Of a stretch of DNA of 64,000 bases, positions 38,498 to 42,463 are shown piece by piece. A program made the translations under genes and the position numbers. The notes under the pieces are model-generated. The model did no database searches. It had not been told where the DNA came from and saw only the letters and a list, made by a program, of their open reading frames with translations. Position 1 is the first letter of the stretch. Every line of letters begins with the position of its first letter. The stretch comes from Streptomyces sp. NBC_01237 (GTDB lineage Bacteria > Actinomycetota > Actinomycetes > Streptomycetales > Streptomycetaceae): the NCBI RefSeq assembly GCF_035917275.1, contig NZ_CP108508.1:4898001-4962000 (forward strand). Direction: 5' to 3'.

Positions 38498-38986
38498 CTA
38501 CTTCTTGTTCTGGCGTGCCCTTCGTACCGGCCGGGGGTTCTCCGCGGGCGTGGCCAAGTGGTCGTCGGCCAGTGCGTTCAGGGCCCGGAGCAGGACCTCG
38601 CGATCGGTGGCGGCGAGCGCGGCCAGCGCTTCCCGGTGAACCCGGTCGACGATCGCCTGACTCTTCTCGGCGAGCCGGGCGCCCTCCTCGGTGACCGCGA
38701 TGATCCTGGCCCTCCGGTCCCGGCTGGAGGGACGCCGTTCGGCGAGACCGGCGCTCTCCAGGGCGTCCACCGTCACCACCATCGTGGTCTTGTCCATGTC
38801 GCCGATCTCGGCGAGCTGGATCTGGGTGCGCTCCTCCTCCAGGGCGTGGACCAGTACGCAGTGCATACGGGCCGTGAGGCCGATCTCGCCGAGCGCCGCC
38901 GACATCTGGGTCCGCAGTACGTGGCTGGTGTGGTCCAGGAGGAAGGAAAGGTCGGGTGCGGTGCGTGCGGGTGTCATGGCGGTCAT
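38498..38986 (-). CDS. MarR-family transcriptional regulator
   Basis: 162 residues: winged helix with ALEEERTQIQLAEIGDMDKTTM and the MarR wing ERRPSSRDRRARIIAVTEEG. It lies directly upstream of the MFS-PPOX exporter on the same strand and very likely represses it. TACGCT (38994-38999, minus strand) is 7 nt before the ATG, a leaderless arrangement. The Lys/Arg-rich tail ends RRARQNKK. Confidence 0.92.
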   Translation of the reverse strand: MTAMTPARTAPDLSFLLDHTSHVLRTQMSAALGEIGLTARMHCVLVHALEEERTQIQLAEIGDMDKTTMVVTVDALESAGLAERRPSSRDRRARIIAVTEEGARLAEKSQAIVDRVHREALAALAATDREVLLRALNALADDHLATPAENPRPVRRARQNKK

Positions 38987-39111
38987 GCCTGCCAGCGTAA
39001 CAATTCGGTCCGTGGCGGATCGTCCAGAAGGGGATGTTCCCTTGGTCGGGGACGGCGCCGGGGTCGGGTGTCGGGGGTCGAGGCCCGAGACGGCGCCGGG
39101 GAGCGCTCATC

Positions 39112-39162
39112 CGGCCTCGGGGAACATCGGTACAGCGGTTGGCGCTGAGATTGATCATGGTC
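39112..39162 (+). repeat. Left terminal inverted repeat, 51 bp
   Basis: Starts CGGCCTCGGGGAACATCGG; two mismatches against the right copy. Read outward it encodes a short frame with LSANRCTDVPRG, also present at the other end, so the sequence is well preserved. Confidence 0.85.
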
Positions 39163-39234
39163 GGCTAGCACACCGGCCGGTGGCTCCGCTGAGGTTCGCG
39201 GAGAGATCGCCGGGCGGGTGCCAGGGCTGGCTAC

Positions 39235-39490
39235 GGTCCGCTCGTGCCGGTGGAGTGGACGTGGCCGCGCTGTGGGCAGCCGTGGGGGAAGTGGCCCCGC
39301 GCGCCGCCGTGATGAGCGCGGCGGCCACCGTGGTGACCCTGGTGCCCGAGGACGAGAACTCGGCCGAGGTCGCCATGCGGGCCGTGCTCGCGAACCGGTA
39401 CGCCACGGTGCGCCCGTTCCTCGCGCTGCTGGGCGAGTCGAAGGCCCTGGACGCGGCGAGCGCCGGGAAGAGAGTCCTGGCCGGTGCGGG
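39235..39490 (+). pseudogene. Tn3-family transposase fragment
   Basis: About 80 residues in one frame: VDVAALWAAVGEVAPRAAV, then TLVPEDENSAEVAMRAVLAN and TVRPFLALLGESKALDAA ending at GKRVLAG. This pattern (LW-x-A-V-x-E-V-AP-R, then TVRPFL) is the internal region of Tn3-type transposases of Streptomyces. Upstream and downstream no related sequence remains; the frame dissolves into Pro/Arg/Ala repeats after 39490. So perhaps a tenth of the gene survives. Confidence rests on recall of the motif, not on a search. Confidence 0.6.
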
Positions 39491-39678
39491 CCGCCCGCCC
39501 GGCGGCCCTCCGCTTCGCCGGGCCCCGCCCGCACCCCGGGCGGCAGCGGCGCGAGGTCCTGGGACATCCTTCCGCGGCTGTGATTCACGTCACTGCCGGC
39601 GGCTCGGTGCAGCACCCGGCCCCGTTCCGCCGTCATGGGGGCAGTGATCGGGACGGGACGAGGAGAGGAGGTCGGCGG

Positions 39679-40227
39679 GTGAGGTTTCGCAGGAGCGGTC
39701 CGGGCATCGGATTCACGGAGTTCGTCGCACAGCGGTCGGGAGCGTTGTTCCGCACCGCGTATGCGCTGACCGGTGACGTGCACGTGGCCGAGGATCTGGT
39801 GCAGGAGGCGCTGGAGCGGGCGTGCCGACACTGGCGGAAGGTCGCGGTGGCGGACTCGCCGGAGGCGTACGTGCGCAAAGTGCTGGTCAACCTGGCCAAC
39901 GACCGCTGGCGGCGGCTGTCGCGCCTGGGCGAGCGCCCCGGGCTGTCGGGGGTGCCCGAGACGGCCGACCCCCGGGACCGGTTCGGGCAGGTGGATCTGC
40001 GCGCGGAACTGATCGAGGCACTGCTCGGGCTGCCGATGGGCATGCGCAGCGTGGTGGTCCTGTACTACCTGCACGATCTGGACGCCCGGCAGGTCGCCGG
40101 CATCCTGGACATCTCTTCGAGTGCGGTGAGGTCCCAGCTCGCCCGCGGCCTGGCCAAGCTGCGCGATTCCGTATCGGGCGCCCAGGCGCCGCACACCCCG
40201 TCGGCCGCTTTCGGAGGTACGAAGTGA
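39679..40227 (+). CDS. SigE-family ECF RNA polymerase sigma factor
   Basis: 182 residues from GTG, with AGGAGAGGAGG upstream. Region 2 (FRTAYALTGDVHVAEDLVQE, about 23-42) and region 4 HTH (LDARQVAGILDISSSAVRSQ, about 137-156). It has the Streptomyces SigE-family pattern (TIGR02983 type). Its stop overlaps the start of a single-pass PASTA protein gene by 4 bp, the position normally held by an anti-sigma factor. It lies within the inverted-repeat element. Confidence 0.9.
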   Translation: MRFRRSGPGIGFTEFVAQRSGALFRTAYALTGDVHVAEDLVQEALERACRHWRKVAVADSPEAYVRKVLVNLANDRWRRLSRLGERPGLSGVPETADPRDRFGQVDLRAELIEALLGLPMGMRSVVVLYYLHDLDARQVAGILDISSSAVRSQLARGLAKLRDSVSGAQAPHTPSAAFGGTK

Positions 40228-40802
40228 GGAACACGTCGTCAGGACCCGCCCCGTTCGAGCCGGGCCTCGAAGCCGAGCTGCGTGCCGCGGTGGCCTCCTT
40301 CGCCGACGGGCCGACGGCGCCGGTCGTCGATGCGGCCGCGATCGAGCGAGTCGTCAGCCGCAGCCGCACCCGCCGGGCGCTCCTCGGCACCGCTGCGGCG
40401 TGCTGCGTGCTGGCGTGCGCCACGGTGGGGTTCTTCGCGCTGAAGCCCGTGCCGCCCGCGCCCGGCGCCTCCCCGTCCCTGTCTTCACCGGCGAACGGGG
40501 CGTGCACCCCGCTCGCCACCGGCACCCCCAAGAGCGGAAGCGCCGATGCGACTCCGACACAGGAGCGGGAGCAGACCGCGGGAGGGGGCATCGCGCTGCC
40601 GGACCTGGCCGGCATGCCGGTCGAACAGGCCGGAAGCCTGCTGCGCGGACTCGGACTGAGCTGCACGATCATGCGGCACACGGACTGGAACGCTCCCGCC
40701 GGGCAGGTGATCAGCAGTGACCCCCGGGGCGGCGCAGAACCGGTGGCACCGGGCTCGTCCGTCCTCCTGCTGGTCTCGACGGGCAAACCCGGCAGAACCT
40801 GA
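40224..40802 (+). CDS. Single-pass membrane protein with extracellular PASTA domain, possible anti-sigma
   Basis: 192 residues from GTG overlapping the sigma gene stop. A cytoplasmic part (1-52) with ELRAAVASFADG and RVVSRSRTRRALLG, a helix (GTAAACCVLACATVGFFAL, about 56-74), a Ser/Pro linker and one PASTA domain (about 123-187: LPDLAGMPVEQAGSLLRGLG, VISSDPRGGAEPVAPGSSV). PASTA domains bind muropeptides or lipid II. The cytoplasmic segment is in the place where anti-sigma domains of this sigma family lie, so signal-dependent control of the sigma factor is likely; it lacks a zinc HxxxCxxC motif. Confidence 0.85.
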   Translation: MRNTSSGPAPFEPGLEAELRAAVASFADGPTAPVVDAAAIERVVSRSRTRRALLGTAAACCVLACATVGFFALKPVPPAPGASPSLSSPANGACTPLATGTPKSGSADATPTQEREQTAGGGIALPDLAGMPVEQAGSLLRGLGLSCTIMRHTDWNAPAGQVISSDPRGGAEPVAPGSSVLLLVSTGKPGRT

Positions 40803-41107
40803 GCGACCGGGCCCTTCGGCCCGCGCACCGGCCGAGTGACCCAGGGGCCGGTGCCGGGCAGTCCGTCGACCGCGGCGCACCGGCTGGACGCCCGCCCCTC
40901 CGGGCCGCTGCTGGGCTTTTCCGAGGGGCGCGTGCGGGGAGGGGAGTGGGGGGAGGGCTCCTGCCGGTGGGGCGCAGGGCCGTGGCGTCGGCGGAGCATG
41001 CGCGCACAGACGCTCCGCCCGTGCGCGCGCCGACCGCCGACTCCCCGTCCCGGCCCAGCGCAAGGCCCGCCGCGAGTGCGAGAACCGGGTCAGCGCGCTC
41101 ACACCCT

Positions 41108-41158
41108 GACCATGATCGTTCTCAGCGCCAACCGCTGTACCGATGTTCCCCGAGGCCG
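41108..41158 (-). repeat. Right terminal inverted repeat, 51 bp
   Basis: Reverse complement of the left copy with two differences (AC for TT near the inner end). Its outer end touches TCATC, which also supplies the stop codon of the flanking MFS gene. Confidence 0.85.
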
Positions 41159-42463
41159 TCATCCGCGCGGTGCGTGGCCGCGTACGGCGGGAAAGCCGTG
41201 GATGCGAGCGGCGATCACCACGATCAGCACCGGAAGCATGAGGGCGAGAGCGCTCCAGGCCAGCGAGGCCGGCCCGAGGAGCCCGAGCAGGAGGCCGCCG
41301 GCGACCCCGCCGCCCGCCATCGCCACGTTCCACAGGGTGACGAGCATGGCCTGTGCGGCGTCCGCCGCGTCGCCTCCCGCGTCACCCGCGGCGGTCTGGA
41401 GAAGGGTGGGGGCGCCGCCCCAGCCGAGTCCCCACAGGGTTACGGCGGCATAGACCAGCGCCGGACTGCCGGCCGGCAGGGCCAGGGCGGCGGCCGCCAC
41501 GGCGACCAGGAGGGCCCCCGCGACGGTGAGTGCCCGCAGCCGTCGGCCGATCGTGGCCCCCACGACCCAGATGCTCACCAGCGAGGCGGCGCCGAAGACC
41601 AGGAGGACGAGATCGGTGGAGCCGCCCATGCCGAGGCGGTCGAGGTACGAGGCGATGTACGTGTAGAGGACGGTGTGGGCGAGGACGAACATCAAGGTGA
41701 CGAACAGGACCGGTGTCACGCCCGGAACGCGGAGCGCGTGCAGGACCGGCGCCCGTCCGTTGCCGGGCCTGCCGGGCAGATCCGGGGCGGACACGGCGAT
41801 CCAGGCGAGCAGCACCACGGTCAGCACGCTCATGGCGAGGAAGGCCACCCGCCAGCTGAGTACGGTGCCGAGGAAGGTCCCGGCGGGTACGCCCAGCGAC
41901 AGGGCGACCGGAATCCCGGCCATGGCGATCGCGACGGCCCTGCCGCGCAGACGCGCGGGCACCATACGGCGGGCGTACCCGGCCAGCAGTGCCCAGGCGA
42001 GGCCCGCGGCCACCCCGGCGGCGAACCGGGCCGCCATGGTGAGGGGGTAACTGCCGGAGAGCGCGGTGACCGTGTTGGCGACGGCGAACCCCGCCATCGC
42101 GGCGAGCAGCAGCCGCTTGCGCCGCCATCCCGCCGTGGCGGCGGTCAGCGGGATCGCCGTGAGCGCGGTCCCGATCGCGTAGACGGTCACGGTCTGGCCC
42201 ATCGTGGACTCGCCGACGCCGAGGTCGGCGCTCATGGCGGGCAGCAGCCCCGCGGGCAGGGTCTCGGTCAGGCTGGTGATGAACACGGCCGTGGCCAGCG
42301 CCAGTAGTGCGGACAGGGGGAGGGCGCGCTTCCCGGCGGTACCGGCCTCGGCGGCCTCACCGGCCTCACCGGTCTCGCCGCCGTGAACGGCGTCACGGGC
42401 GGCATCGGCAGCGGGACCGGCGGCTGTACCGGCAGGGATTCGGGTGGTGTTCCGGCTCGTCAT
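41159..42463 (-). CDS. MFS exporter (Cml/sugar-efflux DHA1 type)
   Basis: 434 residues, 12 helices from about residue 45. Typical DHA1 strings: ESTMGQTVTVYAIGTALTAI and SWRVAFLAMSVLTVVLLAWI; similar to chloramphenicol or arabinose efflux proteins of Streptomyces. The stop codon overlaps the 5-bp repeat at the right end of the Tn3-like element, so the insertion lies right at its 3' end; the stop would be kept without it. It is divergent from a MerR regulator over a classic MerR dyad (42479-42500), and presumably controlled by it. Confidence 0.92.
   Translation of the reverse strand: MTSRNTTRIPAGTAAGPAADAARDAVHGGETGEAGEAAEAGTAGKRALPLSALLALATAVFITSLTETLPAGLLPAMSADLGVGESTMGQTVTVYAIGTALTAIPLTAATAGWRRKRLLLAAMAGFAVANTVTALSGSYPLTMAARFAAGVAAGLAWALLAGYARRMVPARLRGRAVAIAMAGIPVALSLGVPAGTFLGTVLSWRVAFLAMSVLTVVLLAWIAVSAPDLPGRPGNGRAPVLHALRVPGVTPVLFVTLMFVLAHTVLYTYIASYLDRLGMGGSTDLVLLVFGAASLVSIWVVGATIGRRLRALTVAGALLVAVAAAALALPAGSPALVYAAVTLWGLGWGGAPTLLQTAAGDAGGDAADAAQAMLVTLWNVAMAGGGVAGGLLLGLLGPASLAWSALALMLPVLIVVIAARIHGFPAVRGHAPRG

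Follow-up and report, generated by a model that had tools for sequence, protein, structure and literature searches.

We describe here a compact mobile element in the window, the 64,000-nucleotide stretch of the Streptomyces sp. NBC_01237 chromosome under analysis. The element spans positions 39112 to 41158 (2047 bp) and lies 4.94 Mb along the 8.23-Mb chromosome, in the intergenic region between a marR gene and a major facilitator superfamily (MFS) gene (41159-42463, minus strand). A preliminary description, made from the letters alone, had reported two 51-bp inverted repeats (49/51) some 1.95 kb apart, a bordering TCATC at each, a Tn3-type transposase fragment just inside the left one and, as the sole complete genes between them, those for an extracytoplasmic function (ECF) sigma factor and a PASTA membrane protein, overlapping by 4 bp. 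All of these features are present as described (Table 1). The terminal arms, 51 nt each, are inverted, 49/51 (96%) complementary and 1945 nt apart; across the 5.5 kb examined, the runner-up pair is 37 nt long at 70%, and we rejected a chance repeat on that ground. The stop codon of the MFS gene falls inside the right TCATC, and because the duplication contains it, the MFS protein is unchanged by the insertion.

Table 1. Features of the element and its cargo, in window coordinates
Feature	Position	Strand	Basis or remark
Left target duplication copy, TCATC	39107-39111		abuts left arm; single TCATC at empty site of G019
Left terminal inverted repeat, 38-bp Tn3-type core plus 13 bp	39112-39162	+	end comparison; related ends in genus genomes
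Left end of parental Tn3 element, 145 bp, to tnpA start	39112-39256	+	blastn to several loci, many ending at ~39254-39256
tnpA fragment, TnpA residues 366-440	39256-39490	+	96% identical to own-genome copy
Captured sigma/PASTA cassette, long form	39485-41055	+	common to L059, L120 (=L137), L122 (=L139)
Palindrome TGTGATTCACGTCACT	39579-39594	+	fits Crp consensus GTG(N)6GNCAC
Putative ECF promoter: GTGCAGCA (39607-39614), 16 bp, CGTCAT (39631-39636)	39607-39636	+	conservation; predicted function
ECF sigma factor, SigE-fam_strep (TIGR02983), 182 aa	39679-40227	+	Sigma70_r2 and r4_2 domains
PASTA membrane protein, 192 aa	40224-40802	+	transmembrane segment ~51-73; PASTA domain 124-186; predicted cytosolic N-terminus and outer PASTA
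Hairpin-forming GGGCCCTTCGGCCC, possible terminator	40811-40824	+	1/14 positions variable in 20 copies
Right end of parental Tn3 element, 114 bp, with resolvase-gene 3' tail	41045-41158	-	TnpR residues 289-319, 77%
Right terminal inverted repeat	41108-41158	-	inverted-pair search and end comparison
Right target duplication copy, TCATC	41159-41163		abuts right arm; includes stop codon of MFS gene

Membership in the Tn3 family is supported by the ends, the target site and the interior alike. A passage of PMC7157771 gives terminal inverted repeats of 38 to 40 bp or longer as a family character, and the arms are of Tn3 type and of such length; comparison of ends indicates that the repeat proper is apparently the outer 38 bp, from which the 51-bp match extends further inward. 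The 5-bp duplication, TCATC at either edge, has its counterpart in the empty site that the preliminary description proposed to look for in a relative. In G019, the nearest relative and classed as the same species as the source, locus L092 matches the two joined flanks (38600-39111 and 41164-41700) over their full length at 94%; the junction there reads AGCGCTCATCCGCGC and contains TCATC only once. The alignment is ungapped at the join itself; its gaps of 6, 6 and 18 nt all lie in the left intergenic stretch, and the nearest ends 8 bp before TCATC. Among 150 genus genomes G019 alone gave a match across the join, the others that matched both flanks doing so separately. G019 lacks the sigma/PASTA cassette, the best match to its core there being a sigma paralogue at 70%.

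The interior and ends are homologous to an element with a Tn3 transposase and a resolvase, of which only TnpA residues 366-440 and TnpR residues 289-319 are left here; the element thus has no tnpA and tnpR of its own. The resolvase tail and the 38-bp core are additions to the preliminary description, as is the mobility of the cassette itself across the family. The open reading frame (ORF) in the source genome that matches the tnpA fragment carries PF01526 and DUF4158, and since the fragment falls outside both domains, a Pfam scan of it found no Tn3 family and only DUF1118 (E 0.068). A third related end in the source genome (C1:8049469, 83%) adjoins an open reading frame for a TnpA with both domains and a Resolvase-domain protein, and window positions 41045-41158 match the opposite end of the own-genome Tn3 element, resolvase tail included. 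This own-genome element (L011, G000:C1:8046000-8060000), with its open TnpA of 1015 aa, its resolvase of 323 aa and one detected terminal repeat, is a possible source of transposase in trans. The 1.6-Mb contig G000:C2 of the same genome holds several further Tn3 transposase pieces, at 443, 657, 696 and 729 kb. At locus L038 the left end and the matching tnpA piece stand ~1.06 kb apart, and an internal deletion at ~39255 in the window element follows from that spacing. The junctions of the cassette, with the tnpA piece on one side (39485-39495) and with the right end on the other (41045-41055), each have ~6 bp common to both partners; such overlaps are only suggestive of microhomology joining, a signal that G+C-rich DNA weakens.

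The vehicle belongs to a type already known. Its terminal repeat was matched in at least 61 of 150 genus genomes, own included, a lower bound in that at most six candidates were scored per genome; the repeat is thus a widespread Tn3-type end, so that the search proposed in the preliminary description came out in favor of it, and the elements that bear this repeat in the genus are numerous and varied. We surveyed ten other inward repeat pairs less than 15 kb apart from the genus-wide match list. Exact 5-bp duplications flank four of them (GTGTG, GGTAC, GAAGC and GTGGT) and are absent from six. Searched by tblastn with the own-genome TnpA, every one of the ten lacks the transposase gene or has it only in part or split, and the cargo varies. 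The preliminary description had called a non-autonomous Tn3 derivative with signalling cargo unusual: the derivative stands, but the vehicle is not unusual, as derivatives with assorted cargo are not rare. Three loci with the same terminal repeat and tnpA remnants only (L183, L187 and L192) contain ORFs that, judged by eye from translation, resemble hydrolases and short-chain dehydrogenases.

The cargo is a different matter. We count at least 20 distinct copies of the operon, from 20 strains that belong to three genera or more, after merging repeats (G075=L056, G386=L060, G426=L055, G577=L057). Over 39580-40820 their identity to the window is 96.6-99.3%. All 19 non-window copies were first detected through the PASTA protein in searches of plasmids, genome contigs and whole genomes, so retention of PASTA is ascertained and that of operator and sigma is not. 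The protein was found by tblastn on two plasmids, of Streptomyces sp. NBC_00376 (97.4%) and Kitasatospora purpeofusca (90.6%), and a scan of genome contigs returned at least eight loci. Across whole genomes the distribution is sparse: of 392 genus genomes, 3 (the source among them) have core DNA at 97% or more, and the pair is plainly not conserved in all relatives, which would have told against an insertion. Of 297 family genomes, 12 (again with the source) encode the PASTA protein at 91% or more; they bear three genus labels (g1, g5 and g14), and beyond them its identity falls to at most 53%. In 11 of 11 genomes the cassette is closer to the window (96.6-98.3%) than is a 1.25-kb rpoB segment (88.5-95.5%).

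The copies have probably recombined, given that the four-gamete test is violated by 285 of the 903 informative-site pairs and that only 3 of 17 inner branches of their tree are well supported; the window copy itself combines a core nearest L054 with flanks of the L059 type. No neighbour common to most copies emerged from Pfam scans of 30 ORFs in the flanks, and the contexts are unrelated. Five copies on contigs of more than 7 Mb (L134, L136, L139, L140 and L141) lie within ~1.5 Mb of a contig end, so that in the source strain the switch may have reached the central chromosome from a plasmid or chromosome arm by way of the transposon. Carriage by phage was considered and rejected, with no match in 50,697 phage records and no relative in viral contigs.

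Three copies lie within an inward Tn3-type pair flanked by an exact 5-bp duplication: the window (TCATC), L054 (GTCCT, 38-bp ends) and L139 (GCACC, ends of ~40 bp, element of 4.8 kb). A pair of the L054 type without duplication encloses the cassette at L052, and the three kinds of terminal repeat involved differ in sequence on the same 38-bp layout. With a threshold of at least 27/38 identities within 4 kb, Tn3-type ends occur at 10 of 20 copies and at none of 15 control loci (hypergeometric P ~0.001, by hand), the controls being 18-kb loci taken from the nine genomes of L134-L142, at distances of 40-200 kb from the cassette. In those nine matched genomes alone the counts are 5/9 and 0/15, and at a relaxed limit of 26/38 over whole flanks ends appear at 11 of 20 copies. 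Pieces of tnpA are clear in the window, L054, L058 and L139 and amount to ~30 residues in L056 and L057. In a search of 61 genomes for an empty site of the L139 element, eight matched, one being G461 itself and the remaining seven covering the right half only.

Several loci show further layering. In Streptomyces sp. DvalAA-43 (L054:8920-9616) a window-type repeat pair (31-32/38) is nested in the second-type Tn3 element that carries the cassette, and L142 has a window-like end at the same distance from the cassette as in L054. Loci L056 (at 4026) and L137 (at 5870), of different genus labels, have in common a 2.1-kb left flank that ends at a third type of Tn3 end (36/38 and 28/38, respectively, the L056 end lying beside an assembly gap), and on this basis a larger ancestral carrier may have existed.

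Pairwise comparison of flanks reveals two backgrounds with many breakpoints on both sides and no fixed ends. The shortest left flanks stop ~4 bp short of the palindrome upstream of the operon in L134 and ~6 bp short of it in L053, and in none of the 20 copies does a truncation reach into this palindrome, the sigma gene or the putative promoter. To the right, the backgrounds diverge at ~40832-40835, 8-11 bp past the GGGCCCTTCGGCCC hairpin, and the shortest copy within its background (L056) ends at ~40842. Trimming is therefore tight on the left side and less so on the other. Variant density per site is 0.112 in sigma, 0.191 in PASTA and 0.307 in non-coding positions, and sigma has fewer distinct nonsynonymous variants than expected under neutrality (35 against 43.9, P 0.0095; 2000 simulations, 20 copies). 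The one stop in this variant count represents two adjacent changes of a single L061 codon scored apart. Strong positive selection, suggested by pN/pS in an early sample of 11 copies, was dropped when a mutation-spectrum null over 20 copies gave it no support. Some codons are multi-allelic in the 20 copies (window 40719-40741 and 39829-40089), namely PASTA residues 166 and 172 and sigma residues 51, 83 and 137, possibly a reflection of ligand or partner tuning.

Both proteins belong to recognizable families. The sigma factor scores 153.1 bits against the TIGR02983 cut-off of 141.55, placing it in SigE-fam_strep, and the PASTA protein scores 42.2 bits against PF03793 (gathering score 23.2); its best match in the PDB, by sequence homology, is 2kui (E 1.4e-5). 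A defence-system identity was ruled out, the two PADLOC PD-T4-6 matches spanning just the PASTA part of the kinase model. Upstream, the palindrome TGTGATTCACGTCACT agrees with the Crp consensus for Streptomyces, GTG(N)6GNCAC, given in a passage of PMC10033298 and is unchanged in 18 of 20 copies, L140 and L142 being one base off each. The pattern TGTGA-N6-TCACT has one exact match in the window, near chance expectation, and the support for the palindrome is therefore conservation and not rarity. The promoter motif GTGCAGCA-N16-CGTCAT is identical in all 20 copies. We also examined nine distant sigma/PASTA pairs (sigma 63-76% identical) from 22 further places, some of which are long kinase-like frames; a palindrome-like sequence and the promoter motif, with some mismatches, are recognizable upstream of all nine, and sequence-family comparison of their PASTA partners yielded usable alignments for only two. 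Downstream, the minimum-energy fold of 40800-40860 pairs bases other than those of the GGGCCCTTCGGCCC hairpin and is not significant (z -1.10).

In the evolutionary scenario that we favor, the stretch from 39112 to 41158 is very probably a non-autonomous Tn3-family transposon whose operon has spread among the Streptomycetaceae. An ancestral element with tnpA and tnpR lost most of both genes and gained the sigma/PASTA operon between its ends. Tn3-type transposition brought it into the intergenic region between marR and the MFS gene and duplicated TCATC, with a related TnpA most likely acting in trans. The operon has spread recently in the family, partly in Tn3-type elements with differing repeats and partly at sites without a detected transposon end, and its flanks erode while the unit of operator, promoter, sigma and PASTA persists, presumably under selection.

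As to function, the PASTA protein would bind the sigma factor through its cytosolic N-terminus, its outer PASTA domain would sense envelope ligands, and the freed sigma factor would switch on its own promoter, with a Crp-type input through the palindrome. The ligands would be muropeptides, lipid II or beta-lactams, which other PASTA domains sense. We lean, with some reserve, toward this sensor/anti-sigma model for the pair, in which topology and gene pairing speak for the anti-sigma role, and that the element wires a putative cell-wall sensor into a new genome position, as the preliminary description proposed, is plausible. Far more tentatively, the operon may be a portable, autoregulated, Crp-gated envelope-stress circuit, repeatedly captured by Tn3-type elements and plasmids and selected to keep the unit from operator to operon end.

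Several observations weigh against these proposals. We infer every functional step of the operon from domains and motifs, and a Pfam scan of the operon matched no anti-sigma domain model. A regulon did not emerge either: the search of nine genomes with the promoter consensus gave 31 matches, 10 at sigma/PASTA loci and 21 elsewhere, and the exact matches outside sigma/PASTA loci equal those of a reversed-pattern control (21 against 21). The association with Tn3 is softened by the fact that four of the ten end-bearing loci provided the query ends (without the query loci the count is 6/16 against 0/15, P ~0.01, and some of these share ancestry), and one of the 15 control loci, L152, bears a Tn3 transposase piece. 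No Tn3-type end was detected in the available flanks of nine of the 20 copies, and Tn3 is therefore not established as the mover of all of them.

That two independent Tn3 remnants merely sit beside a resident sigma/PASTA locus, with no insertion as a unit, might be entertained in view of the frequency of such ends in the genus and of the mosaic interior; it is nevertheless extremely improbable, as an identical 5-mer borders the two inverted ends, the flanks stand united at a single TCATC in the empty site of G019, and a close copy of the cassette is missing from 389 of 392 genus genomes. An unlikely but more serious contender holds that the cassette has its own transfer mechanism and that Tn3 elements are just frequent landing or carrying sites. 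The nine copies with no detectable end speak for it, as do the ragged flanks with their many differing breakpoints and the involvement of three kinds of Tn3-type end, yet a Pfam scan found no recombinase gene in the unit, which shows no fixed ends, both window junctions resemble illegitimate joins, and the contrast of copies with control loci ties the cassette to Tn3-type ends.

The operon might instead be a neutral passenger without effect on its host, frequent merely through its mobile carriers. Substitution in PASTA is near-neutral (74 nonsynonymous variants against 75.0 expected), both genes had a pN/pS of ~1 in the early sample of 11 copies, and two copies are damaged, L139 by frameshifts in both genes and L142 by one in PASTA. 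Against such neutrality stand the two frames kept intact in 18 of 20 copies, the deficit of nonsynonymous variants in sigma, the lower variant density of both genes than of non-coding positions, and the lack of any left truncation into operator or sigma, though 19 copies were found through the PASTA protein. On this evidence we regard neutral carriage as rather doubtful and retain selection on the unit as part of the scenario that we favor.

Several known systems resemble parts of this arrangement. Passages of PMC6403206 describe Tn4556, a Streptomyces Tn3-family element with 38-bp inverted repeats, 5-bp target duplications, tnpA starting at nt 200 and cargo genes. The window element has the same repeat and duplication lengths, a tnpA start close to one end and cargo, but Tn4556 is autonomous with a 994-aa TnpA, whereas here only tnpA and serine resolvase fragments accompany the sigma/PASTA operon. 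The TIMEs, as passages of PMC4133298 present them, have Tn3-type 38-bp repeats and 5- or 6-bp duplications and transpose without a transposase gene, mobilization in trans having been proposed; most are 262 bp, TIME-COMP elements carry a whole TIME at each end, and some TIME-derived elements carry functional modules (PMC4133298). The likeness in repeats, short duplications, missing transposase gene and carried modules is clear from these passages, but the window element is an internally deleted one with a captured operon, in Streptomycetaceae, and at 2047 bp with its operon it is not a miniature of the 262-bp Pseudomonas type. It also resembles mobile insertion cassettes in having passengers between its ends and no transposase gene. 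Such cassettes place one or more passenger genes between transposon ends without a transposase, with examples, carrying other cargo, in Bacillus cereus and Xanthomonas.

The operon has its own relatives. Like other SigE-family (TIGR02983) ECF sigma factors with a membrane partner, the sigma factor passes the family model and its gene overlaps a downstream membrane gene, but the partner here has PASTA and no recognized anti-sigma domain, and the pair is horizontally mobile. Its PASTA domain is homologous by sequence to those of PknB-type kinases; the protein differs from them in its single PASTA repeat, its lack of a kinase domain and the pairing of its gene with a sigma factor.

What is new is the cargo and its mobility across the family; the vehicle adds to a known type. 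Sigma factors are usually regarded as resident regulators, and we found no report of ECF/PASTA pairs or of sigma factors as transposon cargo in the open-licence PMC literature. The 20 natural copies, with their trimmed edges and common promoter, delimit a minimal unit. From a two-gene circuit that crosses genera as a unit it would seem that selection can act on an entire regulatory switch as a mobile trait and, if the tentative reading of the operon as a portable circuit is true, a signalling circuit would be disseminating through the Streptomycetaceae as resistance genes do.

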